Assembly: GCF_000488215.1 (NCBI RefSeq)
Contig: NZ_KI530712.1
Location: 186,001-250,000 of the forward strand
Source: Acinetobacter nectaris CIP 110549
GTDB taxonomy: Bacteria; Pseudomonadota; Gammaproteobacteria; Pseudomonadales; Moraxellaceae
DNA: 64,000 nt
Reading direction: 5' to 3'
Positions within the stretch are counted from its first letter, which is position 1. The number at the start of each line of letters is the position of its first letter. A program made the translations under genes and the position numbers. A model generated the notes under the pieces. The model saw only the letters and a program-made list of their open reading frames with translations, searched no databases and was not told where the DNA came from. Shown in pieces: positions 27,257 to 58,750 of this stretch.

Positions 27257-27259
27257 GTT

Positions 27260-29194: not shown

Positions 29195-29195
29195 A

Positions 29196-31886: not shown

Positions 31887-31985
31887 TTGTATAGATGACC
31901 GTATTAAAGCTAATAATTAGTTTATAGAAACACTAATTTAAATTAAATGAAATTTCTTATGTACACGACACATAATGACGTAGTG

Positions 31986-32999: not shown

Positions 33000-33008
33000 G
33001 GATTCCAC

Positions 33009-35734: not shown

Positions 35735-35872
35735 TTTAAAGAGCCATTCAAATTGTTTGATTGGCTCTTTTTTGATTATTGGGTAAATAACTTGTCCAAG
35801 TAAAATAATATTCTAATTTGTAAATACACTTATGACAGTGTCCAAGTTAGGTAAGAATAGGTGTTCAAGTGA

Positions 35873-36631
35873 TTGTTGATTTTGCACATAGAGGGTAAGG
35901 ATGTTGATCAGCTGGATGTAGAGTTGAAATTTAATGGAGCAATGAGAGTTTTGCAGGATTCCATAGATAAGAATTTACTAGATCTTGAATCATGCCAAAA
36001 AATAATACAAAGTGATAATTTTTCAAATATTATAAAAAATGCGGAAGAAAAAATTCAAAATTTAGAAGCTGCCAAAAGAGCATTTGAAGGTGAACATACT
36101 AGAACTGTTTATACAGAAGCATTTGAAAAATACTCAGATCTTGCCAAGAGGTACGAACGTGCTTTCTATGCATTAATCTATCTGTCTATAATGTCTACCT
36201 TTATTGCCTGTGCAATAGTCTATCGCCGTAGTGATTTGCTTTATGATGTTTTAATTGTCAAAGCTGTAATAGCTGTAGCAGTTATTACTTTACTCACGCT
36301 GTGGATACGCCGTGCTAGTCATTATCGAAAGCTAGCAGAACAAGCAGAACAGACGGCTTTAGAGTTAAGAGCAATTCCATCATTTTTAAAGGAAGTAAGG
36401 GAAGAAGATCAGCGTTTAATTTATAGAGATTTAGCTGGTAAATACTTTGGAAAGACTCTTGACCAAACCCAGCATGATAAAATTGGTGATCTTATGCAAG
36501 ATCAAATTAAAAATACAATTGAACTGACCAAAGCAACAGTTGATGCTGCTAAAGGTTATAAGGATATTGTTAGTGCAAAAGATGAAGCTAAAGATAGTAA
36601 CTCTAGTAATAATAAAGAAGATAAATCATGA
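35873..36631 (+). CDS. two-transmembrane coiled-coil protein of unknown function, 5' end probably cut by the IS
   Basis: About 250 residues. A long N-terminal coiled coil (EKIQNLEAAKRAFEGEHTR) leads to two membrane helices (AFYALIYLSIMSTFIACAIV and VLIVKAVIAVAVITLLTLWI), then a basic stretch and a cytosolic helical tail rich in Lys and Asp. The frame begins at TTG codons just after the IS21 right end, with no ribosome-binding site, so its true start is unclear. It is coupled to the next gene by ATGA. No domain is recognised. Confidence 0.6.
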   Translation: MLILHIEGKDVDQLDVELKFNGAMRVLQDSIDKNLLDLESCQKIIQSDNFSNIIKNAEEKIQNLEAAKRAFEGEHTRTVYTEAFEKYSDLAKRYERAFYALIYLSIMSTFIACAIVYRRSDLLYDVLIVKAVIAVAVITLLTLWIRRASHYRKLAEQAEQTALELRAIPSFLKEVREEDQRLIYRDLAGKYFGKTLDQTQHDKIGDLMQDQIKNTIELTKATVDAAKGYKDIVSAKDEAKDSNSSNNKEDKS

Positions 36632-37095
36632 AAATTAGAGAAGCATTTACGTATTTGATAAAAAATTATAAACACTTATCTGAAAATGAAGAAAGTATTA
36701 TTGGCATGGAATATATTCCCAAAGCCAGTGATGGAGAGTTTCAAATATTTAGCTTAGGATTAGATGAGGATGGTTTAGAAGAAGGAAACTACTTTATTGC
36801 TATTCATTTTAGTGCGGGAAATATCGGAGCATTTGATGGTGTTGATGATAGCTTTTCTGGAGATTACGCAGAAATAGAAGATATTATTAATGAAATACCT
36901 GAAGTTGAGCAGATCAATTTTAATATTTATCCTTTAGAGTACGCACCATTTGGTGTGATTAGTGAATATGCACTGACAGAAATCTTCCCAGAACTCCCTA
37001 ATCCTGATAATGAAACAGATTTCGATATACCAAAATTTAGAAAAGAGGCCATTGATTTAATCAAGCAGGTAAATAAGCCCCAGCTTTATCACTAA
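36628..37095 (+). CDS. acidic 155-aa cytosolic protein paired with the membrane protein
   Basis: An unrecognised soluble protein, strongly acidic in its centre (DGVDDSFSGDYAEIEDIINEIPEVEQ). The ATG overlaps the previous stop, so the two genes form one unit. A terminator follows about 40 bases later. A membrane anchor plus soluble partner is a common layout in phage-exclusion and effector pairs; here that is only a hypothesis. Confidence 0.55.
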   Translation: MKIREAFTYLIKNYKHLSENEESIIGMEYIPKASDGEFQIFSLGLDEDGLEEGNYFIAIHFSAGNIGAFDGVDDSFSGDYAEIEDIINEIPEVEQINFNIYPLEYAPFGVISEYALTEIFPELPNPDNETDFDIPKFRKEAIDLIKQVNKPQLYH

Positions 37096-37133
37096 TAACA
37101 CCCAACAAACTTAATTAAACTATTTCGTATATT

Positions 37134-37161
37134 AGCCCTTATTCATTATGAGGGCTTTTTT
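37134..37161 (+). terminator. terminator abutting the Q-like gene
   Basis: AGCCCT pairs with AGGGCT around an 11-nt loop and is followed by T6. The last T's touch the GTG start of the next gene. Confidence 0.7.
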
Positions 37162-37695
37162 GTGTCTGCAGAAAAGTATCCAGTAAGCCATGGAACATCA
37201 GAGGGTAAAGCCATTAAACAAAATATTATGCAAGCAACTCAGTGGAGTAAATACACTTTTGAAGAATGGTGTCGTCAACTTGGTGCATGGATTAACGGCG
37301 ACAGTGAACGAATGATTAAAATTGTTAAATTTATGCCAACAAAGCGCATTACACAAAAGCAAAGGGAAAAACTCCTTGCGATGTATATGGGCGATAAAAA
37401 TTTAATTGATATGATCTTTAATCATAAAAAAGGTACTTGTTGCAATATGGATTGTAATGAGGCTAGAGCAATACATCGTATATTCATAGATATTAGTGTA
37501 ATTGATGATGAAATTTTAAATGATTGGATATCCTCCGTCTGGTCACATCATGTATTAGGTAACTCGTTTCGCCGTATAGCAGAGGCTAGTGATACAAGTG
37601 TTAATCAGATCCGTCAGGATGTGAAATGCGGTCTTGCTTATATTAAGAGTAGATATCCTAGTTTTAGTTTTGAAACTTTCCAAAAAAACACTTGA
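37162..37695 (+). CDS. Q-like late-gene regulator (inferred)
   Basis: 177 residues. The C terminus has a sigma-region-4-like HTH (NSFRRIAEASDTSVNQIRQDVKCGLAYIKSRYPSF-type), and the middle holds Cys/His (KKGTCCNMDCNEARAIH) like the zinc-containing antiterminator Q proteins. The frame starts at a GTG that directly follows the T-run of a terminator; an internal ATG at 37228 is an alternative. It lies before the late-region genes, as Q does. Antitermination is inferred from order and motif. Confidence 0.6.
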   Translation: MSAEKYPVSHGTSEGKAIKQNIMQATQWSKYTFEEWCRQLGAWINGDSERMIKIVKFMPTKRITQKQREKLLAMYMGDKNLIDMIFNHKKGTCCNMDCNEARAIHRIFIDISVIDDEILNDWISSVWSHHVLGNSFRRIAEASDTSVNQIRQDVKCGLAYIKSRYPSFSFETFQKNT

Positions 37696-37769
37696 GTGTG
37701 CGCACGGGTTATGGCATATTTGTGTAAAAGTAGACAAGCTATATTTAGATGTTTACTGATCTTTATTAA

Positions 37770-37800
37770 AGCTCGCCGTATGGTGGGCTTTTTTATTTTT
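37770..37800 (+). terminator. terminator after the Q-like gene
   Basis: AGCTCGCC-GTAT-GGTGGGCT with a T-run. It could be the late-promoter terminator on which a Q protein acts. Confidence 0.7.
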
Positions 37801-37895
37801 CAAAAATTAACGTCTCTTTAAAAATTTTATTATTAATAATGCAATGATATTCATTTAAGCTTAAACCTTAATTTTAAAAAAATTGGTTTAGTTTA

Positions 37896-38333
37896 ATGAT
37901 CATTTTAAAAGAAGGTTATGAGGCTTTTGATAAATTTCTTAAAACTACACTATCGCAGGTAGTTTTAAGTGGTACATGTTTATTATTTTTATATAAAGCA
38001 ACGACTATGGGGTTTACTGTACAGGCCAGTACCGTATTTATAAGTGCAATATTATCTATTTTTATAGCAATATTTTGGATTATAGGAAATATTCAAAACT
38101 TCTGGAATAGTTTTTTCAATGTATGCTTATCTGAAAGAGTTGACTGTGTTAGTTATAACTCGAATGGAGAAAAATTCTTTGATATTAAGGACATTAGAAA
38201 GATTTGGAAGGTAAGCAAACGATTAGTATTAGAAATTATATTTGTTATAATAACTATTTATTTTATGCTTGTCATATTGTTTTTTCAGATATTTATTTAT
38301 ATTAATCAAATGAGTATAGCTCTGCATATTTAG
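37896..38333 (+). CDS. membrane protein of unknown function (145 aa)
   Basis: Three or so hydrophobic helices: SQVVLSGTCLLFLYKATTM, STVFISAILSIFIAIFWIIG and LEIIFVIITIYFMLVILFFQ. A soluble loop of about 45 residues lies between the second and third. No family recognised and no clear ribosome-binding site. One of a run of membrane proteins between the Q-like gene and terminase. Confidence 0.5.
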   Translation: MIILKEGYEAFDKFLKTTLSQVVLSGTCLLFLYKATTMGFTVQASTVFISAILSIFIAIFWIIGNIQNFWNSFFNVCLSERVDCVSYNSNGEKFFDIKDIRKIWKVSKRLVLEIIFVIITIYFMLVILFFQIFIYINQMSIALHI

Positions 38334-38454
38334 ATGAAAATAAAATTAGGGATAGGTATATCAGAAGATACGGGTAATAATGCTATCAGTTTTTGTAGAG
38401 CGGTTTTCTGATTGATGTATAATTGAGATAATGTATTTTTATCAATAAAAATAG

Positions 38455-39168
38455 ATGAAAAATATACTTAAATTTTTTCGATCAAAAGCTTTATATCTAG
38501 TAATCTCATTCTACATAGCTTACTTAGTTATTATCTTTGCTTTACTAGCAAATAATTTATCTTCTCTTATTGGTCCGTTAATAGCTCCAATGACATTAGT
38601 AGTTGGTATTTTTATTTGGAAATGGCAAGAAGATCAAAAAAATAAAACTGCTCGTAATGAGGAGCATTTTAAGAAGTGTAGAGAAAGAGCTGAAAAACTA
38701 TTTAATGCTTATATTAAGTATGAAAGCTCAATACAGAGATTACATAGGGTATATACAGATTTTTGCCGCTGCTCTGATGATGTGAAGAAGTTTAACTTTC
38801 TCTCCGATATTGGTACAGAAATAACATTGAATAAATCTTTGCAGGATGATGTCTACTTTGAAAGCGTTTTATATTATTTTCTCATAGAGAAAAAATCCAA
38901 ATTAGAAGTTTATCAGGATGCTACAACACTAAATAATCATTTCACTGGATTTTGGTACTTTGTCGACAACCTAGAAAAATTGGTGGATGCTTATAACGAT
39001 TGTAAAGGTAGTGAATCTGAAAAGAGAAATGCTTGTAAGTTAAAGTTATTTAATATCTCAGGTAATATTAAACATTTAGATTTTGGTTACTCTGAAGATA
39101 GAAACAAAGTAATTTACACAAAACCTAGAGAAAAGATAATAAATATTTGTGGAGAATATTTTATATAA
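38455..39168 (+). CDS. two-TM N-terminal membrane protein with long cytosolic domain (237 aa)
   Basis: Two hydrophobic segments occupy the first 60 residues (ALYLVISFYIAYLVIIFALL and IAPMTLVVGIFIWKW). About 175 helical, charged residues follow (DQKNKTARNEEHFKKCRERAEKL...). This layout recalls membrane-anchored sensor or effector proteins, but no domain is recognised. Confidence 0.5.
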   Translation: MKNILKFFRSKALYLVISFYIAYLVIIFALLANNLSSLIGPLIAPMTLVVGIFIWKWQEDQKNKTARNEEHFKKCRERAEKLFNAYIKYESSIQRLHRVYTDFCRCSDDVKKFNFLSDIGTEITLNKSLQDDVYFESVLYYFLIEKKSKLEVYQDATTLNNHFTGFWYFVDNLEKLVDAYNDCKGSESEKRNACKLKLFNISGNIKHLDFGYSEDRNKVIYTKPREKIINICGEYFI

Positions 39169-39246
39169 ATATTGAGATTTGATACTTACTTATTCTTAAA
39201 CTTGTCATTAAGTTTCTTTAATCCAGCAGCTCAAGGATGAGCAACT

Positions 39247-39333
39247 ATGCGAAGTAATCAATATGTAAACGCGCATCCTAGAATTCGTGTTATAGTGAAC
39301 GAAGTTATAATTATAATTAATCCACTCGATTAA
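39247..39333 (+). CDS. possible 28-aa micro-protein
   Basis: ATG with AAGGA 10 bases upstream; product MRSNQYVNAHPRIRVIVNEV... The first 12 bases of coding sequence equal those of the micro-gene at 25093. A terminator follows immediately. Confidence 0.35.
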   Translation: MRSNQYVNAHPRIRVIVNEVIIIINPLD

Positions 39334-39334
39334 T

Positions 39335-39366
39335 AAGCCTGATATTTAATTGTTGGGCTTTTTTAT
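39335..39366 (+). terminator. terminator
   Basis: AAGCC pairs with GGCTT around an imperfect, 16-nt interior, followed by T6. Confidence 0.55.
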
Positions 39367-39409
39367 TGTTTTTGGTAAGATTTAAAATTAATCTTATGGT
39401 TAAACACTA

Positions 39410-40236
39410 ATGAAAAATAAAGAGTTTCAAGAATTGATATACTTGATGCAAAGTTTAGCTAATAAAGCTCAAATATATTATAAAAATCACGAAAAAGAAT
39501 TTGTGCTTATTGGAAGTAAAATACAAAATTTTTTAGAACACTCGCTTAAACAGAAAATTATAGCTTCTAATATGAGTAAAGAGGGTTGGTTCCCGTCATC
39601 ATTTGTATTTCGTACAAGTATTAATGATGGAGAATCAAACGAGAGCTTTATGCGAAGAGTTATAAAAAACCATTATGAGCAGATACAAGAAACTCTCTAT
39701 TCTGGATATCCTAATAGGGCAGAAATTTTCACTGAAATGTTTGAAAGCCTAGAATGTGGTAGATACCGCTATTTTATGATGGAGTGCTTTGCTCAAATTG
39801 ATGGAATATGTACAGATAGTGGATACTCCCCATTTTTTTCTAAAGAGTATGATAAAAAAATGAACTTAAAGGAAATCCTGTAGTAGATAAAAGCCTTAAG
39901 TTTGAAAAGTTCACAGTATTTTTAGATGAAATGATTCAGAGTAAAAAGTACGACGCCATTTTTTTGAATTATTATAAAGAAATAATTTCATTTACTAAAG
40001 ATTGCTTTATTGGTCAATCAACTCATAATCTGGATTATACAAATGAAAACTTTCTATTAAATCGTCATGGAATTTTACATGGAGATAGTACTCATCTAAA
40101 AGCTGGTACAGAGTTGAATGCATTAAAGATACTATCACTTTTATTATTTGTTGATTTTTTAATACGTGGAGTTGAAACATATAAAATTGAAGTAGCTAAA
40201 CAGTCACTTATTGTAGGAAATGATAAAAATAATTAG
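39410..40236 (+). pseudogene. frameshifted HEPN-like protein gene
   Basis: Two frames abut: 39410-39883 (157 residues) and a second frame entered from about 39860 to 40236. The first ends soon after a run of seven A's (39854-39860) and a stop. Losing one A from an ancestral eight restores one protein of about 275 residues, continuing KNELKGNPVVDKSLKFEKF. The C-terminal half holds NRHGILHGDSTH, the R-x4-HG-type pattern of HEPN and abortive-infection families. Either an inactivated gene, phase variation at the A-run, or a sequencing error. An internal ATG at 39931 could still express the C-terminal part. Confidence 0.65.
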
Positions 40237-40355
40237 CTTGATAGATATTATTCTAGTTTGTACATTTTTATGCACTATTCGATTTTTGAGTAAAATCTTA
40301 ATTATTTAGAATTTTTCTGTTACCCTGATTTTAAATTAAACTTAAATAATCTGGT

Positions 40356-40907
40356 ATGGTAATAATGATACAGCATTCAAATTGGATTATATTTTTTTCC
40401 AATGGTACTTTTGAAGCGACTTTCACTACTCCTATAGGAAGCAAGAATATATCTTATATGCTTGCGTGGTTATATTTAACGTTTAACCAAGGGAAAGTTA
40501 TTAAAGATGGGTTTAATGTTTCTATTAGGCATAGTGATAAGGCCTTAAAAGTCGAAGTACTTGATGATATATCTCAAAATAAAATTAATGAGATTTGGAA
40601 GAATGCAGTAGGACAAGATGATAAATATCACTTTAGTCATCCTATCGTAAATATTAATAACAATGGAAAAATTTCAAACTCTTCAAATGATAATATAACT
40701 TCAGGATTTCAAGGTCTTATAGATCCATTTAATTCGAGAAATACGCCAAAAAATATGGTTGATGTAATTGAGGGTATGAAAATAAAGTATCAGGACCACA
40801 CAAAATTTATGCAAAAAGTATTAGATGAAGTCTTTGAAGATAAAAATATTAAGAAAAAGTATAATAACTCTGATGGTATGATTGAAGATTATGATGAATA
40901 TGAATAA
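40356..40907 (+). CDS. hypothetical protein (183 aa)
   Basis: No membrane segment, no recognised domain. The first 80 residues are beta/alpha mixed (WIIFFSNGTFEATFTTPIGSK), the middle is Asn-rich, and the tail is charged and acidic. The start codon is uncertain (ATG at 40356 or 40365). It is followed by its own terminator, as expected for an independently acquired cargo gene. Confidence 0.5.
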   Translation: MVIMIQHSNWIIFFSNGTFEATFTTPIGSKNISYMLAWLYLTFNQGKVIKDGFNVSIRHSDKALKVEVLDDISQNKINEIWKNAVGQDDKYHFSHPIVNINNNGKISNSSNDNITSGFQGLIDPFNSRNTPKNMVDVIEGMKIKYQDHTKFMQKVLDEVFEDKNIKKKYNNSDGMIEDYDEYE

Positions 40908-40922
40908 AATAAACTGATATTG

Positions 40923-40942
40923 AACCACCTTTGGGTGGTTTT
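40923..40942 (+). terminator. terminator, first of three CACC-GGTG copies
   Basis: AACCACC-TTTG-GGTGGTT followed by TTTC. Nearly identical hairpins occur at 41631 and 42281. Confidence 0.75.
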
Positions 40943-40994
40943 TCATCATAAAAGGTTCTATCTTATAAAAATTATTGTTGGAGGTCAGCCTCGT

Positions 40995-41612
40995 ATGATT
41001 GAACTTTTAATTCCTTTTTTTATCGCTATTTGTGTTTTAACAATTACACCGGGCTTAGACACAACTTTAATTATTCGAACTGCTAGTTTAGAAACAAAAT
41101 CAAAAGCAATAAAAACTGCTGCAGGAATTAGTTTTGGTTGTATCGTTTGGGGACTGATTGTTGCTTGCGGTCTTGGTGCATTACTTGCGACTTCTGAAAT
41201 TGCATTTAGTATTCTAAAGTGGACAGGTGCTATTTACCTAGCTTGGCTAGGTATAAAAATGATCCTTAATCCAAGAAACTCTCTTGAATCCGCAAATGAT
41301 GTAGCAGATAAAGGAAAACAAAATTGGTTTATAAAAGGATTTCTAACTAATATCTTGAACCCTAAGGTTGGAATATTTTATATTTCTTTCCTACCACAGT
41401 TCATTCCAAAAGGTGGACAAACTGAAGTTTGGGTAATGTCATTAGTTTTGATTCATGTTGTTATTGGATTCGCTTGGTCTTTTACACTTATTACTTTAAT
41501 GAAACCTATTGCAAAATATTTAAAGCAACCTCGCGTTATTCAAAACCTAGATAGAATGACTGGATCCATATTCTTATTATTTGCAATTAAGTTAGCACTT
41601 ACCAAACGCTAA
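40995..41612 (+). CDS. LysE/RhtB-family exporter carried in the prophage
   Basis: 205 residues, six hydrophobic segments. The first helix ends CVLTITPGLDTTLIIRT (TPG signature of the family) and NPKVGIFYISFLPQF appears mid-protein. The frame is open upstream, but ATG 40995 preceded by GGAGG gives the family N terminus. Such genes are ordinary chromosomal genes; its place between phage genes, with terminators on both sides, marks it as cargo. Substrate unknown. Confidence 0.85.
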   Translation: MIELLIPFFIAICVLTITPGLDTTLIIRTASLETKSKAIKTAAGISFGCIVWGLIVACGLGALLATSEIAFSILKWTGAIYLAWLGIKMILNPRNSLESANDVADKGKQNWFIKGFLTNILNPKVGIFYISFLPQFIPKGGQTEVWVMSLVLIHVVIGFAWSFTLITLMKPIAKYLKQPRVIQNLDRMTGSIFLLFAIKLALTKR

Positions 41613-41630
41613 GATATTAAATATTTTGGA

Positions 41631-41650
41631 GCCACCTTCGGGTGGTTTTT
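41631..41650 (+). terminator. terminator, second copy
   Basis: GCCACC-TTCG-GGTGGTTTTT hairpin following the exporter gene. Confidence 0.8.
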
Positions 41651-41702
41651 ATGTCTGTAAAACTAATATAATGAGTCAATATAAATTTGAGAAAATCAAA
41701 TA

Positions 41703-42254
41703 ATGAATTATCCAATAGTAGCTGGTGACATTTTAAGAATTTACAGAGAAGAAGAATTTATTTCTTATTGGCATTGGGGAGTATACGTTGGTGACTCTCA
41801 AGTAATTCACTTCTCAAATGCAAAAAGTGATACATCATCTGATAATGAAATTATTAACACTCATTTAAAAAAATTTTTCCGTAATGCAAAAAAATTTCAA
41901 GTCGTAGATTTCTCACCAAAGGGTTATAAAGAAAAATATATTACAAAGGATATCAAAATTGATCCATGGAATAGATTTATATCTAATCCAAGCTTAGGAC
42001 TTTCTGGAATAATGGATCTCTATGATAAAATATCAGGAAGGAATGTTTCGGATTATAAAATATATAGTCCTAAAGAGGTTGTAGAGCGAGCACGTAGCAG
42101 ACTAGGTGAAAAAAACTATAGCTTATTAACAAACAACTGTGAGCATTTTGCAGTTTGGTGTAAGACTGGGGTTAAAGGATCTAAACAAGTTGAAGGTATT
42201 CTCGAAACAATATTTGGTGCAGATAGTAATAAAAAATCTATTTATATTGAGTAG
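41703..42254 (+). CDS. LRAT-like (NlpC/P60 superfamily) domain protein
   Basis: 183 residues. The N terminus is the LRAT His motif: YWHWGVYVGDSQVIHFSN. The Cys motif NNCEHFAVWCKTG is near residue 142. These match the family of permuted papain-like enzymes that includes LRAT and phospholipase/acyltransferases. It shares both motifs with the protein at 19096 but little else, so they are not simple duplicates. Substrate unknown; flanked by terminators as a single-gene unit. Confidence 0.75.
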   Translation: MNYPIVAGDILRIYREEEFISYWHWGVYVGDSQVIHFSNAKSDTSSDNEIINTHLKKFFRNAKKFQVVDFSPKGYKEKYITKDIKIDPWNRFISNPSLGLSGIMDLYDKISGRNVSDYKIYSPKEVVERARSRLGEKNYSLLTNNCEHFAVWCKTGVKGSKQVEGILETIFGADSNKKSIYIE

Positions 42255-42280
42255 CAGTCATAAATTGAGAAAATCAATAT

Positions 42281-42300
42281 ACCACCTTCGGGTGGTTTTT
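42281..42300 (+). terminator. terminator, third copy
   Basis: ACCACC-TTCG-GGTGGTTTTT hairpin, almost the same 20 bases as the copy at 41631. Confidence 0.8.
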
Positions 42301-42315
42301 TAATGGGTGAAAAAG

Positions 42316-42957
42316 ATGGAACAAATTAGACCATTCCCACCAACAGACTTTATAGACCAAGCCGAGCAAGAAGAAACCATACGCTTAATTCCTGCACCTG
42401 ATTTAAAACAATGGGCTGTAAAGAACTATCTTACATCCGATGGTCAACTTTATAACCCTGACCATGATCATATTGCTGAAATTTTAGATAATGATGAAAC
42501 CTTTTTAGCCTTTGCATGGGCATCATCTGCCGCCGTGTCTAAAAAGCGTATGGTGCTTGGCCAATGTGAAAAAGTCATGTTTAACGTTGGTGGTTGGAAA
42601 AAGGCAAGACAAGAACAACAAATGCGAGATTGGTTTGGATACATTCCTGTATATCTGATTACCATTGATGCAAGCTTCTGTGAACGTGCAAATGACAGAG
42701 AGTTTTGTGCCTTAATAGAACATGAGCTATATCACATCGCCGTAGAACGTGATGAGGACGGTGATCCAATTTGTAGCAATATGACTGGATTGCCTAAACA
42801 TTACTTAGGTGGACACGATGTAGAGGAGTTTGTCGGCGTGGTAAAACGTTGGGGTGCAAACAAAGACATAAAACGATTGGTTGAGGTTGCAAATAATCCG
42901 CCGTTTGTTTCAGATTTAGATATATCAAAGTGCTGTGGAAACTGTGTGATTAATTGA
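42316..42957 (+). CDS. putative phage metallopeptidase
   Basis: 213 residues. The HEXXH zinc motif is in EHELYHIAVERDEDGDP near residue 138, and the C-terminal region has HDVEEFVGVVKRWG. This is the putative phage metallopeptidase family found next to terminase genes; its target is unknown. Start taken at ATG 42316 because GTG 42307 is less well supported. The next frame opens inside its stop codon, but its gene begins at 43032. Confidence 0.78.
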   Translation: MEQIRPFPPTDFIDQAEQEETIRLIPAPDLKQWAVKNYLTSDGQLYNPDHDHIAEILDNDETFLAFAWASSAAVSKKRMVLGQCEKVMFNVGGWKKARQEQQMRDWFGYIPVYLITIDASFCERANDREFCALIEHELYHIAVERDEDGDPICSNMTGLPKHYLGGHDVEEFVGVVKRWGANKDIKRLVEVANNPPFVSDLDISKCCGNCVIN

Positions 42958-43031
42958 TGTTCAAAAAGGATCATATTTTTACTTTCATTTATTCGGCTAA
43001 TCACATAACTTTGATTGTAGGAGAAATAAAT

Positions 43032-43244
43032 ATGGCAACTTATAAGCAAATTCAAGAATTCTTGAAAAATGAACATGGCCGAACTTTTAAGTCTTGTTGG
43101 ATCGCTCATGTTAAGAGCGATCATGGCTTAACTAAAAGGCAGGCACCAAATAGGTATGAACCAGATAAAAGAGTACATCCATGTCCACATGAATATCGTC
43201 AACATGTAGAAAATGCATTGAAGCACTTTAAGATGATCCCCTAA
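43032..43244 (+). CDS. small phage protein (70 aa)
   Basis: ATG preceded by TAGGAG. MATYKQIQEFLKNEHGRTFKSCWIAHV... contains two Cys and several His but no recognised domain. Located just upstream of terminase, as small helper proteins are in related Acinetobacter prophages. Confidence 0.6.
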   Translation: MATYKQIQEFLKNEHGRTFKSCWIAHVKSDHGLTKRQAPNRYEPDKRVHPCPHEYRQHVENALKHFKMIP

Positions 43245-43260
43245 ATTGGGGATTTTTTTT
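43236..43260 (+). terminator. terminator overlapping the end of the 70-aa gene
   Basis: ATCCCC-TAAATT-GGGGAT followed by T8; the stop codon lies in the loop. Confidence 0.8.
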
Positions 43261-43298
43261 ACTTACTTTGTTTGACGTAGTATGACAAAGGGGGAGGT

Positions 43299-43763
43299 AT
43301 GGCTACACTCAAGGAACCTGTTAAAATATTTATAGTTCAATCACTTGCATGTATGAAGACACCACAACAGGTCGCAGATGCTGTCAAACAAGAATTTGGA
43401 CTAGGATTGGATCGCCGTCAGTGTGCGAGTTATGATCCAACAAAGCATGCAGGAAAAAACTTAAGTAAAAAGCTAAAGCTACTATTTGAAGAAACACGGC
43501 GCGATTTCCAAGACAATATTTTAGATATTCCGATTGCAAATAAGGCATTTAGACTCAGAGAGCTGCAAGAGATGTATGAATCTTGGGGTAAAAATAGAGT
43601 CATGAAACAGCAAGTACTTAAACAAGCTTTTCAAGAAACAGATGGCAGAGTCACACGACAAGAGATTACAGGCAAAGATGGCCAGCCGATGGAAACTAAT
43701 GTGGTCTATGCAACTCAAAAACAAGTTGAGGAAGCCGTAGCAAAAGCACAAAGCGAGTATTAG
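43299..43763 (+). CDS. terminase small subunit (DUF2280 type)
   Basis: 154 residues, full length for the family. The N-terminal HTH (TPQQVADAVKQEFGLGLDRRQCASYDP) recognises the packaging site; the middle and C terminus are helical. GGGGGAGGT precedes the ATG. It is followed after two bases by the terminase large subunit fragment. With no capsid genes left it has no packaging role. Confidence 0.85.
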   Translation: MATLKEPVKIFIVQSLACMKTPQQVADAVKQEFGLGLDRRQCASYDPTKHAGKNLSKKLKLLFEETRRDFQDNILDIPIANKAFRLRELQEMYESWGKNRVMKQQVLKQAFQETDGRVTRQEITGKDGQPMETNVVYATQKQVEEAVAKAQSEY

Positions 43764-43765
43764 AA

Positions 43766-44689
43766 ATGTTGAGTCTTCAAGAGCATGTCGAAAAGCGGAT
43801 GTGTGAAGACGATCATTTGTTTTTTACACGCCGTTTCTTTAAGCCCCGAATGGGCTTTAAATTTATGGTGAACTGGCATCATATTTATATTGCATACCTG
43901 ATTGATGAAGTCATCAAAGGCCATATAGATAACCTCGTCATTAACGTACCACCGGGTGCTGGTAAAACTGAGATGACAACCAACCTGATACCAAGAGGAA
44001 TTGCACGTAATCCACGTTCAAGATTTCTTTACTTATCATTTTCTCAGTCATTGGTTGAAGAAGTTGCCTCAACGGCGCGTAATATTGTGAAGTCAGAGGA
44101 CTTTCAAAAACTATGGCCAGTAAATATCTCAAAAAGTAGTGATGCGAAGTCCAATTGGAAAACTACAGTAGACGGTTACGATGCTGGTCATGTATACGGC
44201 GCATCTATGGGTGGTCAGGTCACTGGTCGCCGTGCAGGGACATTGGCAGATGAGGGTTTTACCTCAAAACCTGTTCGTCCAACGCAGGGGGATGTCCCAA
44301 CTATTGGTCACGGCACCACAGTCTATCCAAACGGCAAAGCAGTCACCATGCATGATAAACCAATTTCAAGACAGACTGCAGACTACTACTTAAAAGACCA
44401 CATCTCAAAAGTAGAGAAGCAATTCAAGCACTCAATTCCGAACGTGAAACTCGCTCAAAGTGAGTATGACGCTTACATCGATTTTGTATATCAATTCGGT
44501 ATTGGCACTTTCAATCAGTCATCGATCAGAATAAATCTGCTTCAGGGCAATTACGTCCAAGCCTGTAAAGCACTTCTGAAATATAAATATACGGCAGGGC
44601 GTGACTGTTCAATTCGATCTAACAACTGCTATGGCGTGTATGTACGTCAAAATAACCGCTATGAGAAATGCATGGAGGCAAACCAATGA
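43766..44689 (+). CDS. chimeric protein: terminase large subunit N-terminus fused in frame to GH24 endolysin
   Basis: A 307-residue frame. Residues 1 to about 158 are the TerL ATPase start: VNWHHIYIAYLIDEVI, Walker A VPPGAGKTEM (residues 61-70), and VYGASMGGQVTGRRAG. From about residue 163 the sequence is a GH24 phage lysozyme: EGFTSKPVRPTQGDVPTIGHGTT with the catalytic Glu, then SEYDAYIDFVYQFGIGTFN and the Cys pair near the end. The junction is about 44231-44255. TerL lacks its nuclease domain; the endolysin lacks its N-terminal export segment. A deletion of the whole head-tail region is the simple explanation. Confidence 0.85.
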   Translation: MLSLQEHVEKRMCEDDHLFFTRRFFKPRMGFKFMVNWHHIYIAYLIDEVIKGHIDNLVINVPPGAGKTEMTTNLIPRGIARNPRSRFLYLSFSQSLVEEVASTARNIVKSEDFQKLWPVNISKSSDAKSNWKTTVDGYDAGHVYGASMGGQVTGRRAGTLADEGFTSKPVRPTQGDVPTIGHGTTVYPNGKAVTMHDKPISRQTADYYLKDHISKVEKQFKHSIPNVKLAQSEYDAYIDFVYQFGIGTFNQSSIRINLLQGNYVQACKALLKYKYTAGRDCSIRSNNCYGVYVRQNNRYEKCMEANQ

Positions 44690-45072
44690 CTTATTTATTA
44701 CTGGCTCTGAAATACTGGCGAGAGTGCTTCATTGCATTACTCGCTTTTTTAATCCTGTGCTTACTTATGATCTTGAGTCACAAAGATGAAGTGATCGAGA
44801 AACAGAAGCAAGAGCATATTGCTTATGTACAGGAACAAAAACAGAAATATTTAGAAGCTGCTCAACAACAGCAAATTGAAATGAATAAGGTGAGTGCAGA
44901 CTATGAAAAACTTAAAGCTGAGCAAGCAACAAAAGTTGAATATGTCACTAGGACAATCAATAAATACATTGATCGCCCTGTCTATCATAATGTGTGCATC
45001 GATGACGATGGTCGGGTGCAGCTCAATGATCTCATCAAATCAAGTCAAACCACCAGTACAGATACCAAGTAA
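44686..45072 (+). CDS. Rz-like i-spanin
   Basis: 128 residues starting at the ATG that overlaps the endolysin stop (ATGA). One N-terminal transmembrane helix (CFIALLAFLILCLLMIL) is followed by a long coiled coil (EVIEKQKQEHIAYVQEQKQKYLEAAQQQQ). This is the layout of inner-membrane spanins that fuse inner and outer membranes at lysis. The partner is embedded in another frame. Confidence 0.85.
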   Translation: MTYLLLALKYWRECFIALLAFLILCLLMILSHKDEVIEKQKQEHIAYVQEQKQKYLEAAQQQQIEMNKVSADYEKLKAEQATKVEYVTRTINKYIDRPVYHNVCIDDDGRVQLNDLIKSSQTTSTDTK

Positions 45073-45241
45073 CTTATTGCAGCCTTGTCCTGATCTTCAA
45101 ACGTTAGATGAAAATACAGGCCAGGCATGGATTCTTTGGTCGGTGGATACTGTGAAGAAATATAATGAATGTAAATTTAAGCAAAAAGCCATAGTTGATG
45201 TACTAGAGCAACCCGTATTAACTACTCAGTATATTCCATAA
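44942..45241 (+). CDS. Rz1-like o-spanin lipoprotein, nested in Rz
   Basis: 99 residues in a different frame, overlapping the Rz gene by 131 bases. The signal and lipobox are IALSIIMCASMTMVGC, with Cys as the lipidation site, followed by a Pro-rich VKPPVQIPSNLLQPCP. The frame is open further upstream, but ATG 44942 gives a normal-length signal peptide. Overlapping Rz/Rz1 is standard in lambdoid lysis cassettes. Confidence 0.8.
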   Translation: MSLGQSINTLIALSIIMCASMTMVGCSSMISSNQVKPPVQIPSNLLQPCPDLQTLDENTGQAWILWSVDTVKKYNECKFKQKAIVDVLEQPVLTTQYIP

Positions 45242-45992
45242 TTTTACTTTGCTCTGACTTTAATATATTTTGAAAACTCTGCTTTATTTCAAAATATATA
45301 TTATCTAAGTTATTATGTTGATAATATTCAAGTATTTTTTCCTGAAGACCTTCCGAAGAGAGATTAAAATCTATATTGAAGTCTTTATGGTGTAAAAATA
45401 CAACTCTTATATATTCTTTAATTTTCTGAATAATCTCGTTATTGTCTTCTTCATGAAGATTGAGAATTAACTCAATGTCTGTAGTAAGAGTAGACATATT
45501 TTTGTATAGGAGATCTTTCTTTTTAACTAATTGAAGATACTTGTCAGTATCATCAGTATCATCAATAGACTTATAAATGGAAAGTGTTTCTAGTTGAATA
45601 TCGGAGACAGTAGTTCTTAAGCTTACCATCTCAACGAGTAAATCTCGGATATGAACTTGTAAACTATTTATCCTCTCTTGGCGCAACTTGGAAACAAACT
45701 CAGCTTTTTGTCTAGATATTAATCTTTCCTGTTGATCTTGTTGCGCTTTAAATGTGCGCTCTTGCTGATTTTGTTGTTCAATGAAATTTTGGATTTGTTG
45801 ACTTTCTTGAGCATTAATTAATTCTGATTGTCTGGCATTTTGATATTTATTATTGATTACTAAAGTTGTAATCAGGGTGGTTATTGTTACACCAGATGCA
45901 ATAATAGGAAGCCAGTCTTTTATGGACCAACCAGTTTCTATATTCTTAGATATATCTAAGGCTGGCGGTAAAAATTGAATAATAAAGTCCAC
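45222..45992 (-). CDS. single-TM coiled-coil protein of unknown function (256 aa)
   Basis: Starts at a GTG with AAGGA six bases upstream. One membrane helix (DWLPIIASGVTITTLITTLVI) is followed by a Gln/Glu-rich coiled coil (QQIQNFIEQQNQQERTFKAQQDQQERL) and a helical domain. Opposite strand to the lysis genes and overlapping the Rz1 end by 20 bases. In prophages, genes here between lysis and integrase, read the other way, are usually expressed from the lysogen. No family recognised. Confidence 0.55.
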   Translation of the reverse strand: MDFIIQFLPPALDISKNIETGWSIKDWLPIIASGVTITTLITTLVINNKYQNARQSELINAQESQQIQNFIEQQNQQERTFKAQQDQQERLISRQKAEFVSKLRQERINSLQVHIRDLLVEMVSLRTTVSDIQLETLSIYKSIDDTDDTDKYLQLVKKKDLLYKNMSTLTTDIELILNLHEEDNNEIIQKIKEYIRVVFLHHKDFNIDFNLSSEGLQEKILEYYQHNNLDNIYFEIKQSFQNILKSEQSKIMEYTE

Positions 45993-46110
45993 TCATATTC
46001 CTTTTATTTGTTTAGTTGATTTTTCACTTTTAAGATTAATTAATTTTAAGAAGCATTACTGCTTTTAATCCAACATATCTGCAATGTCATCGACGTCAGG
46101 ATTATAGTAA

Positions 46111-46989
46111 CTATTTACTAGAACCTAAAAATTTAATATTTTTTGCTTCTTGAAGCTGAACATTTCTATTCAGATCGGTAATTAGACAAGATCCCTTAAA
46201 GCAAATTTCAGTAGAAAATAATACATTGTTTTTTGAGTTTGATAACTCAATACGTGGATAAGTGTTATGAGTATTTTCCTTTTTGCTGTAGTAGCTTAGT
46301 ACGGAATTTTGAAATTGAGTTTCAGCATTTTGTTTTCCTTTATCAAAGAGGCCTTGGGCAAAACTAAATAATAAAAAGAATCCAAATATTAAAAGAATTA
46401 AACTTAAATAATGAGCTAAAAAAACTAAATCAAAGTTTGAACTATTTGGACACTCATTCTTAATTCTTTTTAGTTCTATAGGGGATAACTTAGCATTTTT
46501 TAGCCCTAGATATGTTTCTACCTTGAGTCTTCTATTCTCATATAAGAAGCATTTGTAAACTCTGCGTATACAGCGAGGTGTTATATCTTTAAATAATTTT
46601 TTAGTTTTAGGTTTGTAAAAAAATTTAACTAGAACGATAAATGGAGATAACAAACAGAAAAGGATAAAAGATATTGGTTTAAATCTAAAGAAAATGATTA
46701 TAAAATTTAGAAAAACTGCAGCTAATTTGTTGTATACATACTTAAAGCGGTTTTTTAGTGAATGCTGGAAAAAAGAGTATATTACAATAAGACCAATAAA
46801 ATACATATATTCTTTGAAGCCGTAAGTAATGCCATATAGAATTACGGTAGGTAATGGTATATCGAAAGTATCTATATTGTAATGAAAGTAATTAGCCATA
46901 CCTGATAGGTAAAAATAACCACACCAATATAAAAATAGTGTAAAAATGGAAGTAAAAAAAGCCCAATTAAATTCTATATTAATCTTCAT
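46111..46989 (-). CDS. multi-pass membrane protein of unknown function (292 aa)
   Basis: Four or more hydrophobic helices (FFTSIFTLFLYWCGYFYLSG, YMYFIGLIVIYSFFQ, LSLILLIFGFFLLFSFAQG among them), a basic cytosolic loop with Lys/Arg/Cys, and a 90-residue C-terminal soluble domain with two Cys (STEICFKGSCLITD) that may lie outside. Its start overlaps the integrase stop by 11 bases, so it is probably expressed with the integrase from the lysogen. No family recognised. Confidence 0.55.
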   Translation of the reverse strand: MKINIEFNWAFFTSIFTLFLYWCGYFYLSGMANYFHYNIDTFDIPLPTVILYGITYGFKEYMYFIGLIVIYSFFQHSLKNRFKYVYNKLAAVFLNFIIIFFRFKPISFILFCLLSPFIVLVKFFYKPKTKKLFKDITPRCIRRVYKCFLYENRRLKVETYLGLKNAKLSPIELKRIKNECPNSSNFDLVFLAHYLSLILLIFGFFLLFSFAQGLFDKGKQNAETQFQNSVLSYYSKKENTHNTYPRIELSNSKNNVLFSTEICFKGSCLITDLNRNVQLQEAKNIKFLGSSK

Positions 46990-48214
46990 ACTGTCTCTTG
47001 CTAAGGATTAATCCTTCAATCTCATTCATAGCTTCACGCAACTTCTTATCACTCACTTGTACATATCCAGCAGTCACATCACGTTCATCTTCTTCACGAT
47101 GATTGAGTAACTTCTTAATGGTATATTTTCCATAGTCTAAGCTTTCAGCGATAGATCCGAACGTTCTACGCAGATCATGGAAAGTGAACTCAATACCACA
47201 AGACTTATTTATTTTTGCACGTACCTTAGAGATATTTGTAATGTGACCAGAGACGGATTTAGCAGAAGGGAACACCCACTTACTATCTACAATATGTCTT
47301 TTTCTTTTCCGCATTAACTCCCAAAGAAAATCTCCCATAGGCAAAGTATGTGGATCTCCATTTTTAGGATCAACAGAAGTAATAAAACCATATTTTAAGT
47401 CTACATCTGCCCAAGCTATAGACTCACACTCATTTCTACGAAAGCCTGTCAAAATCAATGTAAGTAGAAAGTCTTTATTCGTTTCTAAGACTTGACCACG
47501 ATCTTTGTATGCTAAAACTGCGTTAACCCAATCAGGTAGCTTATCTTCATTAATGTAAGTTTTACGTCTTTTAATCTTATTCCATGCACGTTTAGCATTT
47601 AGAGTATTTACTGGATTGATTAAGGGCAGAATGGGTTCTTCTTTATCATCAAGGTAATGTTCAACAGAAAAGTTATAAATAGCTCTAAAGACGCGCATAG
47701 CCATATTAGCCTGAGCCTTAGAGTTTGTAGATAACTCTTGGTGACGTTGTTGAATCATGGTTCTAGTAATAGAGGCAAGCTTTAAATCTTTCCAATCAGC
47801 AAGATATTTACTTAAGACTATTTCATAATCAGAAAGCGTGCGATCTTTTAAAGCTCTCTCATTTATATAAGCTTCAAAAGCAATTTGTAGGGTAGGCTGC
47901 TGTCTAATTAAATTATCTTGATTTTCTATATCAGCTCTTTGTTGTCTTTTTTGCTCGTTGGGATTAATACCTTTAGACATTTGCACTAAAACTTCTTGTG
48001 CAAGTACACGAGCTTGAGCAAGAGTAATTTGGCCATGTATACCCAGAGTAGACCGAGTAGACTTTCCATTTACCTTTTTTTCTACAATATAAGTTTTATA
48101 GGATGTATTTACTCGAAGAGCAAAACCGATAAGTTCACTATCTCTATAAATGGCTGGTTCTAATGCGAGACTATCAATAAAAGACTTGGTTAACTTTACT
48201 CTTGATGTGCTCAT
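46979..48214 (-). CDS. tyrosine recombinase integrase (DUF4102 arm-binding type)
   Basis: 411 residues. The N-terminal 90 residues are the DUF4102-type arm-binding domain (SELIGFALRVNTSYKTYIVEKK). The catalytic domain shows the first Arg in LTGFRRNECESI, the HDLRRTF box near residue 345, a His in NHREED and the nucleophilic Tyr in TAGYVQVS. The ATG at 48214 is chosen over an upstream frame. It is the site-specific recombinase of the prophage and reads inward from the right end. Confidence 0.92.
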   Translation of the reverse strand: MSTSRVKLTKSFIDSLALEPAIYRDSELIGFALRVNTSYKTYIVEKKVNGKSTRSTLGIHGQITLAQARVLAQEVLVQMSKGINPNEQKRQQRADIENQDNLIRQQPTLQIAFEAYINERALKDRTLSDYEIVLSKYLADWKDLKLASITRTMIQQRHQELSTNSKAQANMAMRVFRAIYNFSVEHYLDDKEEPILPLINPVNTLNAKRAWNKIKRRKTYINEDKLPDWVNAVLAYKDRGQVLETNKDFLLTLILTGFRRNECESIAWADVDLKYGFITSVDPKNGDPHTLPMGDFLWELMRKRKRHIVDSKWVFPSAKSVSGHITNISKVRAKINKSCGIEFTFHDLRRTFGSIAESLDYGKYTIKKLLNHREEDERDVTAGYVQVSDKKLREAMNEIEGLILSKRQYED

Positions 48215-48235
48215 GTTGTAGAATTCCCATGTTTT

Positions 48236-48289
48236 GCAATATATTACAACATATAGCAATATATTTTATAGTCTACTATGCGTCTACTT
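48236..48289. repeat. short direct repeats upstream of the integrase
   Basis: GCAATATATT occurs at 48236-48245 and 48256-48265 (20-base period), and GTCTACT at 48271 and 48282 (11-base period). Helical phasing suits binding sites for the integrase or an excisionase; the function is inferred. Confidence 0.4.
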
Positions 48290-48377
48290 GATAAAAAAAG
48301 CTTGCAAAGCGTATTAAGTTTGGATAGTATACCTTTCATAGCGAAATCTTGTAAATACAAGTAGTTGAAACGCTTAA

Positions 48378-48454
<77 letters not shown>

Positions 48455-48460
48455 TTTATT

Positions 48461-48494
48461 AAACCTCGTAACTATTTGAGTTGTGAGGTTTTTT
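48461..48494 (+). terminator. tRNA terminator
   Basis: AACCTC-GT-AACT / AGTT-GT-GAGGTT long hairpin with T6 follows the tRNA by eight bases. Confidence 0.85.
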
Positions 48495-48873
48495 AGTCTC
48501 TAAATCTCCAGTTTTTATGCTTTTTTCACGGACCGTAAAGTGGTCCATCTTACAAAAGATCCGTTGGTCTATTCTATGTAAGCAAATCCATCTAATTCTC
48601 AGTAGTTTCAAGCTTTCAAAAATCCCCTTGTAATTTCTGCTTTATACAACTTTTAGAGCTCATTTAAATCGTGAAGACTCACAACTAAAAACTCGGATCG
48701 ACTGTGACGAAGTTGAAATCTTTAGAAAAATGGAAATGTAGGTTTTTTCCCTAGTTTTAGTGGAGAAAATGTCTTTTAAGGTGTAGTTTTACCAAAGAAT
48801 TGTATTTATGATTGCCCTTGAAAGTGATTCTAACTTTAGACAAGGGCTATGTATTATTGAAATTGCTGTTTGT
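48495..48873. other. intergenic stretch before the type I operon remnant
   Basis: About 380 bases without a credible gene. It contains GGACCGTAAAGTGGTCC (a short inverted repeat) and GCCCTTGAAAG...GACAAGGGC, a hairpin near 48812-48847 that may terminate hsdR. Otherwise nothing recognised. Confidence 0.45.
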
Positions 48874-51744
48874 TTATAATCCTTTGTAAAACTTTTCAAT
48901 AAACGATTTTGTTTTAATGACTAAATTGGTTAATACAGATAGCCGTTCTTTGAGATTTGGTGATTTAGTTGGTAATTTTAAGATGTCATTGCGTTCAGGC
49001 ATTCTTTTTGTATACTCGTACTGTTCTAGTACTTTCTCAAACTCATCAGCTTTTAGGTTTTCTTCTTTACAAATGTGTTGATAGGCTTGCTCTTTTTCTA
49101 TATCCCAGAAAGACTTAAAAGCATCTTCGACCTTTTGCCCTGTAATGAGTTTAGGGATGTTCTGATCGATAAACTTTTTAATCAATTCTTGTTTGTCATG
49201 TAGACTCACTTCACCTTCAATGAGGTCATTGACCTGAGCTTGGTATTGCTATCTTTTTTCTACACTCGGATTATCAATTGCAAGTTGTAGTAAGCTGATG
49301 ATGTATCCCACGTTAATGCGGTCACTGTGTAGTAGTTCCAGTTGAAAATCAACTTCATCTAAAATGGATACTTTTTCTTTACTTGGTGTTTTACGGACTT
49401 GATGACACAAATCTTTGTACTTTGATGCAAAATCAGCAAAGCTTTGTTTGTCTAAGGTTGTATTGTCTTGATTGTATTCGACAAAGGTTTCTAATTGAGC
49501 ATTGGTACGCATGACTTCACGAAAGGCTTTAATAAATTCCAGTTGATCGTCTTCTGTCAGTAAATCATCAACGTCTTGGCAGTTGGGTGTTAGGTCATAT
49601 AGTTTTTGAACTGAAGTCTCATAGTTTTGCTGAATCTCTGCAAATTCAGGGACTAAAACCACTTGAGGTGTTTCTTTGTTAGAGAAGATTTTAAGGGCTT
49701 CGTCTGTGGCTTGTTTTAGGTTTCTGAAACAAATGATATTGCCAAAGGGTTTATTGCTGTTAAACACGCGGTTAGTACGTGAAAAAGCCTGTATGAGTCC
49801 ATGATGCTTTAAGTTTTTGTCTACGTACAACGTATTAAGCCGTTTTGAGTCAAAGCCTGTGAGGAACATGTTCACTACCAGTAATATGTCAACTTCACAG
49901 TTTTTTACACGTTTAGCAATGTCTCTATAGTAATCGTAGAACTGATCACCTGAGTTGTAATTGGTTTTAAACTGTTGGTTATATTGGGCAATGTAATGAT
50001 CGAGTTTATCTCGTTTAGATGGATTGACTGTACTTGGAATGTCAGTATTTTCTTCATCCAGTAAACCATTTGCATCATCGTTGACTGCTTCGTTGGCTGA
50101 GTATGAGAAAATGGTGGCAATGGTAAGTGGTTTAAACAAACGCCCATGTTCAGCATCTTGCTGTTGCTTTTGACTTTGTAAGCGTTCAAAGATGTCGTAG
50201 TATTTTATGAGGGTGTCTACTGAACTGACACAGAACATAGCTGTAAATTCACGTTTTTTGGTTTTTGTATCGTGGTTATCCAAAATGTACTGTGCAATTT
50301 GTTCTAAGCGTTTTGGGTCTTCCAATAACTCTTGTGTATCTATGCCTTCAACCTGATCTATGGATTGATGTGATGAATGAGTTTTCAAACTGTACTGTCC
50401 ACGGTAGTCAATTTGAAAGGGGAGTACGTTTTTATCTCGAATGGCATCTACAATGACGTATTGGTGTAATAGTTCATCAAATAGATGACTTGTGGTGAAT
50501 TTCAATCCTGCTATTGTTTTTGCATTGTCATCTAAAATAGGCGTACCTGTAAAACCAAACATTTGGGCTTTTTGGAAGAAATTTTTAATTTTTAGGTGAG
50601 TTTCACCAAATTAGCTACGGTGGCATTCATCAAAAATGAATACGACTTTTTTATCGCGTAGGTGTTCAATATCTTGGCTGTATTTTTCTTTTCCAATGGC
50701 ATTGTTGAGCTTTTGAATGGTAGTCACAATCAGCTTGTCATGCGGTAGGTTTATTTGTTCGATGAGTTTCTTTGTATTGGTGGTACTGTCTACACTGTCT
50801 TTTTTAAACGCATTAAATTCTTTCGCTGTTTGTGTATCTAAGTCATTGCGGTCTACCACAAACAGTACTTTTTCAACATCAGGCATGTTCATAATAATTT
50901 GACTGGCTTTAAATGAGGTCAGTGTTTTACCTGATCCTGTCGTATGCCAAATGTAGCCGTTTTTGTTACTGTGTTTTACTTGCTGCGTAATTTGTTGTAC
51001 AGCATAAACTTGATAAGGGCGTAGTGCCATTAACACTTGGGAATCTTTAAGCAAGACCATGTATTCATTAAGCATCTTTGTTAAAAAGTCAGGTGTTAAG
51101 AAACTGCTTGTAAATGCTGAAATGTCATTAATCTGTTTATTCTTGCTGTCTGTCCAAGGAAAGGCAAAGGCATCATTGGTTGTACCATGTGCAAAGTAAC
51201 GTGTATTTACGCCATTGCTCATAATGAAAAGTTGTACAAAGTTAAATAGCCCATAGCCTGTATGGTACGTTTCTCGTTTGTAACGTTGTATCTGGTTAAA
51301 GGCTTCAGCCATTTCAGTACCACGTTTTTTGAGTTCAATTTGAACCAATGGTAAACCATTAATGAGAAGCGTAACATCAAAACGGTAGGTTCGTTTATTG
51401 TAATACTTAGGGTCAATGGTCACTTGATTGGTGACTTGAAATCTATTTTTATGGGGCTCTTTAAACAGTAGGTCGATATGGAGACTTGTGCCATCATCTA
51501 GTTTAATTGGGAGTTTATTTCTGAGTTTGGTTGCACGCTCGAAAACGTTGCCTTGACTAATTTGGTGAAAGACTTGTTTCCACTCTGTATCAGACAAAGT
51601 TGGAATACCATTAGCTCGTTCTAACTGTAGTTTTAGATTGCTCATCAGTTGGGCTTCATTATGAATGCTGACACGTTCGTAATGAAGTTGATTGAGTTGT
51701 TCTAATAGTTGATTTTCGAGTTGGTACTCGCTTTGTGTAGTCAT
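48874..51744 (-). pseudogene. hsdR: type I restriction endonuclease subunit HsdR with two in-frame stop codons
   Basis: One continuous frame of 957 codons is broken by TAA at 50611-50613 and TAG at 49249-49251. Before the first stop: the nuclease domain (VQIELKKRG, the E-x-K motif), Walker A WHTTGSGKTL and DECHRS. After it: FGETHLKIKNFF, MFGFTGTPILDD, and motif VI (HGLIQAFSRTNRVF). After the second stop: a C-terminal helical piece. Each stop is one C-to-T change from a Gln codon. The protein would be cut at the DECH box, removing motor activity. Start at ATG 51744 with AGAGAG. Confidence 0.92.
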
Positions 51745-51757
51745 GTTTCTCTCTAAA

Positions 51758-52588
51758 TTATTTATTATTTGAAGATTGATAAAGCATTTTAAGCTTTTCA
51801 ATCGTCATTTGAGTACCATTAATGGTTTTATGAAGCATTGCATGGCAGTTAGGGCAGACAGGAATTAAGTCATGAATTGGATCAACTTCATATTCATCAG
51901 ATATTTTATGTAAAGGCGTAATATGGTGAACATGTATAAAGCCTTGAGCAAATGCACCATAGGTTTTTGCAAATTCCATCTCACAAATTTGGCAAGATAA
52001 ACCATAATGTTGAATACACTTAGATCGTGCTTCAGGGTTTCGCTCGTAACGATTAACCTGAACTATCTGTTTTGCACCTTCAGGAAATTTCTTATCATTA
52101 AGATTTGCTTCATCAGGATAATCAAAATCAATCATTTCATCATTAAATTGAGATGTAATATAATTTAATAGTACAGAGATTTCATGGTCTTGTGACTTAC
52201 CTCTGTCTGTTCTTAGACCTTGCAAAGTGTCGCTATTTTTAATGTAATTTTGTTCTATAAGTGACTGACGAGTTAATGTCTTATTATCTACTTTTTTCAA
52301 TTTTTTGAACACTGAAAAATTGCCACCATACTTTTTAAGCTCTGTAAGATTGTTCCAAAACAAAAGTTGGGCGTTTGGATATCGGTTATTTTGTGTATGT
52401 TCAATGACTTTGAATTGATAAACAATCTTTGATATTGGTGCTGTAATATAGACATATACAATATCTCCAACTTGGAAGCCTTTATCTGTATTGGTAACGT
52501 CATTTTTCCAATATATTTCAGAGAGTTCATCGTATGCTTTTTCAAGATTGAATGTTTGATAGTTGCAGGTAATTAACCAATTTGCCAT
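51758..52588 (-). CDS. EVE-domain / HNH endonuclease (candidate modification-dependent nuclease)
   Basis: 276 residues. The N-terminal 110 residues look EVE/ASCH-like (ANWLITCNYQTFNLEKAYDEL ... FQVGDIVYVYIT), a fold that reads modified bases. The C terminus is HNH: CQICEME, FIHVHHITPL, DLIPVCPNCHAMLH (two CxxC pairs and HH). EVE-HNH fusions are predicted type IV restriction enzymes. It lies in the type I operon between the GIY-YIG gene and hsdR with 13- to 21-base gaps and has an open frame. Confidence 0.75.
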   Translation of the reverse strand: MANWLITCNYQTFNLEKAYDELSEIYWKNDVTNTDKGFQVGDIVYVYITAPISKIVYQFKVIEHTQNNRYPNAQLLFWNNLTELKKYGGNFSVFKKLKKVDNKTLTRQSLIEQNYIKNSDTLQGLRTDRGKSQDHEISVLLNYITSQFNDEMIDFDYPDEANLNDKKFPEGAKQIVQVNRYERNPEARSKCIQHYGLSCQICEMEFAKTYGAFAQGFIHVHHITPLHKISDEYEVDPIHDLIPVCPNCHAMLHKTINGTQMTIEKLKMLYQSSNNK

Positions 52589-52609
52589 TATTTTCTCTAT
52601 ATTTGCAGA

Positions 52610-53893: not shown

Positions 53894-53903
53894 TTTCTAA
53901 ATC

Positions 53904-56649: not shown

Positions 56650-56888
56650 GGGTAACGCTTCTCTAATCATTTTAAATTTGGTCTATTGTACAAAAAAAAG
56701 AGGGCTTTGTAGCGACTTTGGTATTTAAAACGACAGCTTTTGTCGTCCCCATAAAGAAAGGTGTTTCAAATAGATATTATTTCTATGAAAACAATAGGGT
56801 AAATAGAAAATAGAGAGATATTTAATATTCAATAGACCTTAAAGTTATCTATCAAATCAGTGGTCACTCAGTCTGAGAATTATTAAAA

Positions 56889-57878: not shown

Positions 57879-57880
57879 AA

Positions 57881-58468: not shown

Positions 58469-58638
58469 AAAGGCAAACTGAAATAAAAATAACTGTCTAT
58501 TAATAAGCAAGCCTTATACCAATAGATAGTTATTTTTTATAAAATTTTACAATTAAATGTAAAACCAATAAGAACAGTGATATAAAAAATCAAATTTTCA
58601 CTGAAAAAAGTCACTTTATTTTCTAGTTCTAAAAAAAC

Positions 58639-58654: not shown

Positions 58655-58665
58655 TTATATACTTT

Positions 58666-58740: not shown

Positions 58741-58750
58741 ATAGAAAGTG

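Follow-up and report, generated by a model that had tools for sequence, protein, structure and literature searches.

The open reading frame at positions 43766-44689 of the window (the whole stretch of 64,000 nucleotides analysed here) encodes a chimera that passes in frame from residues 1-166 of a phage terminase large subunit (TerL) into a GH24 endolysin. Its 307 aa are read without interruption from the ATG at 43766 to the stop codon ending at 44689. With a probability of roughly 0.86, we attribute it to one microhomology-mediated deletion in a decaying prophage, which would have yielded an in-frame chimera with no selected function; the ORF is most likely a tidy scar of virus decay that does no work. 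The chimera, its parts and its neighbours are as follows.

37162-37695, plus strand: antitermination Q-like gene of the same provirus (phrog_79)
42307-42957, plus strand: phage metallopeptidase-like gene (PF18894; phrog_513, labelled transposase in PHROGs)
43299-43763, plus strand: DUF2280/phrog_546 gene at the place expected of a small terminase subunit (family matches)
43766-44689, plus strand: chimeric ORF, TerL and GH24 endolysin, 307 aa (ORF, profile and genome searches)
43766-44248, plus strand: TerL part with the presumed Walker A motif PPGAGKTE (99% identity to A. pollinis TerL over residues 1-167)
44249-44262, plus strand: junction microhomology, 14 bp, read as DEGFT in both parents and holding the conserved endolysin Glu
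44263-44689, plus strand: GH24 endolysin part without N-terminal hydrophobic segment (97% and 94% protein identity to two endolysins of the same genome)
44668-45072, plus strand: Rz-like inner-membrane spanin (phrog_1152)
44894-45241, plus strand: Rz1-like spanin overlapping Rz, which may in fact start further downstream (phrog_2425, without an assigned function; phrog_456, spanin; PF23793, below cut-off)
46979-48259, minus strand: tyrosine integrase with Arm-DNA-bind_3, adjoining tRNA-Met (48378-48454)

The initial annotation had read a TerL start and a GH24 lysozyme in one frame, and the profile searches confirm that the fusion is real and in frame. Residues 8-160 match TerL phrog_38 (E-value 3.4e-36) and residues 3-160 the large terminase phrog_4758 (7.5e-35), while Phage_lysozyme PF00959 covers residues 163-280 (3.4e-21, passing its curated cut-off) and the endolysin family phrog_7 residues 147-305. 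A chance resemblance is excluded by the DNA alignments: window 43254-44262 aligns without gaps to the terminase region of Acinetobacter pollinis (92.2% identity over 1009 bp), and window 44249-45174 aligns to the prophage of the same genome that carries the 97% endolysin copy (93.1% over 926 bp). In the PDB, the endolysin half has 12 lysozyme-like matches, of which 6et6 is the best (8e-13); the intact TerL found no PDB match at E ≤ 0.1. The G+C content of the chimera is 43%, against about 36-37% in the outer flanks.

The TerL part retains PPGAGKTE and breaks off just upstream of where Walker B lies in the intact gene. In the intact 513-aa TerL, DEGFT is followed by GCIILDDP, and at this point the chimera passes into the endolysin, with loss of the ILDDP segment, which we take to be Walker B, and of the C-terminal half, presumably the nuclease domain. 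On the endolysin side, E163, D176 and T179 of the chimera correspond to E26, D39 and T42 of the endolysins, which are invariant in all nine rows of the alignment and which we assume, by reference to T4 lysozyme, to be the catalytic residues.

Each half aligns to an intact parent gene; the initial annotation had proposed aligning both halves to intact Acinetobacter prophages. For the TerL half, a scan of genome contigs confirmed five relatives, all of them matching this half only, with A. pollinis SCC477 (NZ_VTDQ01000049.1, a contig of 15,226 bp) as the best; a closest-phage DNA search with the locus gave no match. Compared with this Acinetobacter prophage TerL (phrog_38), the chimera is 99% identical over residues 1-167 and is preceded by the same two genes, but it ends before Walker B and has no nuclease half. 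The endolysin half finds its relatives in its own genome (assembly of 2.67 Mb in 29 contigs), where two more endolysins match chimera residues 158-307 at 97% and 94%. Both have a holin-like gene upstream and a hydrophobic, SAR-like stretch before DEGFTSKP. Compared with such SAR-like GH24 endolysins (phrog_7, PF00959), the last 146 residues of the chimera differ from a same-genome copy by two amino-acid changes, but the N-terminal hydrophobic export segment is missing.

The junction lies within 44249-44262, the only overlap of the two parental alignments; the initial placement at 44231-44255 holds at its right end, which overlaps this interval. The 14-bp overlap, GATGAGGGTTTTAC, is identical to TerL and one mismatch away from each endolysin copy, and is the only 14-mer that the A. 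pollinis TerL gene shares with either copy at up to one mismatch. It stands in equal codon phase in the two genes, and the reading frame was preserved because both read DEGFT there. In codon-shuffled controls such a 14-mer was absent from 10 of 12, with one found in one control and two in another; since 2/12 controls contain such words, the shared word, taken alone, supports the mechanism only modestly. The breakpoint thus fell on the best shared word of this length. We also considered the microhomology as a general hot spot and rejected this, as among 16 TerL rows (several of them identical) DEGFT occurs in A. pollinis only, which makes the shared word an apparent coincidence of this pair of genes.

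The gene order in relatives gives the scale of the event. In four genomes picked among the matches listed in the genus search, TerL and endolysin lie on one contig and one strand, separated by 22,978 bp (G047), 23,560 bp (G092), 26,293 bp (G043) and 24,367 bp (G103). The one interval that was annotated, that of G092 (ten proteins scanned), contains portal, head morphogenesis, protease, major head, tape-measure, tail and holin genes. A further genome has both genes on one contig, about 667 kb apart and on opposite strands, and thus not as one prophage. The ten A. pollinis proteins comprise, in order, a metallopeptidase-like protein, phrog_546, TerL, portal, minor head, protease, major head, connector and major tail proteins, together with one protein of unknown family, and the contig ends before the lysis genes. 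In the genome of the chimera, the 513-aa TerL query matches residues 1-167 only, so that the C-terminal part was not found in the assembly, and queries with the A. pollinis portal and major head proteins gave no match there, in searches run without a positive control. Structural genes are thus missing between two retained flanks, as in defective prophages.

The claim that a single deletion removed the portal, capsid, tail and holin genes stands as the simplest account, given the same order and strand in the four relatives, the structural genes in G092, the 14-bp word and the failure to find the remainder of TerL. A decaying prophage would have undergone one microhomology-mediated (illegitimate) deletion from about TerL codon 162 to about endolysin codon 25, whose size, to judge from the relatives, would be around 20 kb or more. 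The 14 bp shared in the same frame (DEGFT) would have made the product an in-frame chimera, in which a P-loop deprived of the remaining motor and the nuclease precedes a GH24 domain that lacks its export helix. We infer the single event, its size and the lack of packaging, of lysis and of any selected function. Defective ('grounded') prophages that have lost structural genes and kept integrase and regulatory genes are described in PMC6379469, but in the present case the ends of the deletion form an in-frame fusion; the words terminase, endolysin, chimer- and fusion are absent from that main text, and no TerL-endolysin fusion was found among the titles and abstract openings of the papers listed.

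Alternatively, an illegitimate or phage-recombinase-driven crossover between two prophages, or between a prophage and an infecting phage, might have left the chimera as the scar of an exchange, which we regard as improbable. The genome has endolysins of 97% and 94% identity at two other loci, the A. pollinis contig stops short of the lysis genes and so leaves room for a crossover of two prophages, and recombinase-driven exchange between phages and defective prophages has been reported (PMC3945230). The region is also a mosaic, as its divergence from A. pollinis varies along its length (dS 0.08 in the TerL part versus 0.48 in the preceding DUF2280 gene). However, the order and orientation of the genes agree with a simple deletion, and the silent-site divergence of the endolysin part from the two same-genome copies (dS 0.54 and 0.61) means that neither served as a recent donor. 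As an observation in its own right, the step in dS between the DUF2280 gene (43299-43763) and the TerL part is a sign of a recombination edge nearby.

An artefact of assembly or of a strain mixture is a very remote prospect. The genome is a draft in 29 contigs, but the junction lies some 230 kb into a contig of 1.25 Mb, and assemblers usually require longer shared words than these 14 bp. Moreover, the endolysin part differs in DNA from both other copies, and the missing part of TerL was not found in the assembly.

A chimera retained as a working protein, e.g. as a decoy against the terminase of related phages or as a cytoplasmic muramidase, is highly doubtful. The initial annotation had held the export segment to be lost and lysis to be unlikely, and the first point is borne out: both intact copies in the same genome start with a SAR-like stretch, while the chimera has none (best 15-residue mean hydrophobicity 1.79 in intact copy L002 versus -0.19 around the chimera junction). 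SAR endolysins reach their active form in the periplasm (PMC12642591). Without an export helix, a Walker B motif and a nuclease half, the chimera seems unlikely to carry out either packaging or lysis. Translation from the former start codon of TerL may still occur; to our knowledge, the cytoplasm offers no peptidoglycan substrate to a muramidase. The open frame with its conserved Glu163, Asp176 and Thr179, the open DUF2280 gene next to it and the few amino-acid changes in either half would fit a working protein, but the chimera is found in one genome only and the scan of 41500-45400 gave no excess of promoter-like sites (10 found, 13.7 expected). In the structural model of the chimera (mean pLDDT 45.4 on 26 rows, a shallow alignment), the TerL part scores 19-46 per block, which also argues against a working protein, while several helix blocks of the endolysin part reach 70-91. 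The control model of an intact endolysin (mean pLDDT 63.6, 9 rows) falls below 50 at residues 26-47, around the conserved segment, and the models are therefore silent on damage to that lobe. Overall, both models are of poor quality and decide nothing.

The substitution counts bear on the same question. The TerL part differs from A. pollinis by 8 synonymous and 1 amino-acid changes over 165 codons, and the endolysin part from the 97% copy by 36 synonymous and 2 amino-acid changes over 147 codons (stop included). Since these distances are measured against other prophages, they represent mostly time before the fusion, and the scarcity of amino-acid changes in both halves must be mostly history of that period; the counts say only that too little time has passed since the fusion for decay to be visible. 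A translated chimera that together with its DUF2280 neighbour poisons the terminase assembly of related phages, so that the deletion created a packaging-interference locus, is an extremely improbable idea.

The distribution of the chimera was examined in genome collections that contained one genome per species. In the genus search, 131 of 175 genomes match the chimera at E ≤ 0.001, and among the matches listed only its own genome covers residues 1-307. At E ≤ 1e-60, 36 of 348 genomes of the family match, one of them (its own) at full length. A degenerate pattern of the junction matches one IMG/VR contig of 31,467 bp, which is also the only full-length match among 21 loci in the IMG/VR protein search; the part of it that was retrieved is identical to window 35766-50562 at every base, which by subtraction places the provirus call at window 19096-50562, and the contig is the same genome or a twin. 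Not one of the 1436 phage records or the 168 plasmid records with a match spans 80% of the chimera. The same junction in related genomes, a point raised in the initial annotation, was thus not found among the 348 family genomes or in IMG/VR, phage and plasmid records beyond the genome itself or its twin.

Eleven endolysin loci of the genus were followed upstream in their reading frame; nine had been chosen for a long open frame in the genus search and two (L076 and L077) for their gene order. Ten are ordinary endolysins and one is another prophage chimera. At eight of the nine long-frame loci the frame given by the genus search exceeds the stop-to-stop reading; each has 69-138 further open codons in the same frame directly after the endolysin stop(s), and no N-terminal fusion was found. 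The other chimera (L072; G009:C11:253300-255000, minus strand) is an in-frame fusion in a 300-residue stop-to-stop frame, in which residues 1-214 match a phrog_6128 protein and residues 204-293 an endolysin.

At the level of single bases, the present fusion clearly illustrates that an in-frame chimeric gene can arise by chance when a prophage decays. It is also a warning for annotation, as the ORF scores both as terminase and as endolysin and automatic surveys could count it as either. Should the chimera be expressed, it would offer a natural experiment on whether a truncated TerL acts as a dominant negative; otherwise it is ordinary.

The neighbours had been described as intact, and the spanin and DUF2280 genes are indeed open and match their families, but the DUF2280 gene can be called a putative small terminase subunit by position only. 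Its place before TerL, next to which a phrog_546 gene also stands in L023 and G092, suggests this role; PHROGs gives phrog_546 no function. Both genes upstream of TerL are the same as in A. pollinis. Downstream follow the Rz/Rz1-like spanins, two minus-strand genes, the tyrosine integrase and tRNA-Met. At the insertion site, no repeat of at least 13 bp was found between 48181-48620 and 1-36000 or 50000-64000. The scan of 41500-45400 gave four terminator-like sites against 2.3 expected, including one at 43235-43254, upstream of the DUF2280 gene. A defence-model search with ten neighbouring proteins left nine without a match and gave a weak match for one (35873-36631).

The provirus span called in IMG/VR includes MmeI-like restriction-modification, DEAD-like helicase, T5orf172 and Arc-like genes (window 26051-33008) and an IS21-type pair (IstA/IstB-like; 33447-35734). 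Window 35900-42300 forms a block of 30% G+C, against about 36-37% in the outer flanks, with several genes that match no family; one of its genes (40356-40907) has no IMG/VR relative except the provirus itself. A 19-base word, CCACCTTCGGGTGGTTTTT or one variant of it, recurs in near-identical form at 40925-40943, 41632-41650 and 42282-42300; the first two are partly covered by the scan report, and the third scored as terminator-like.
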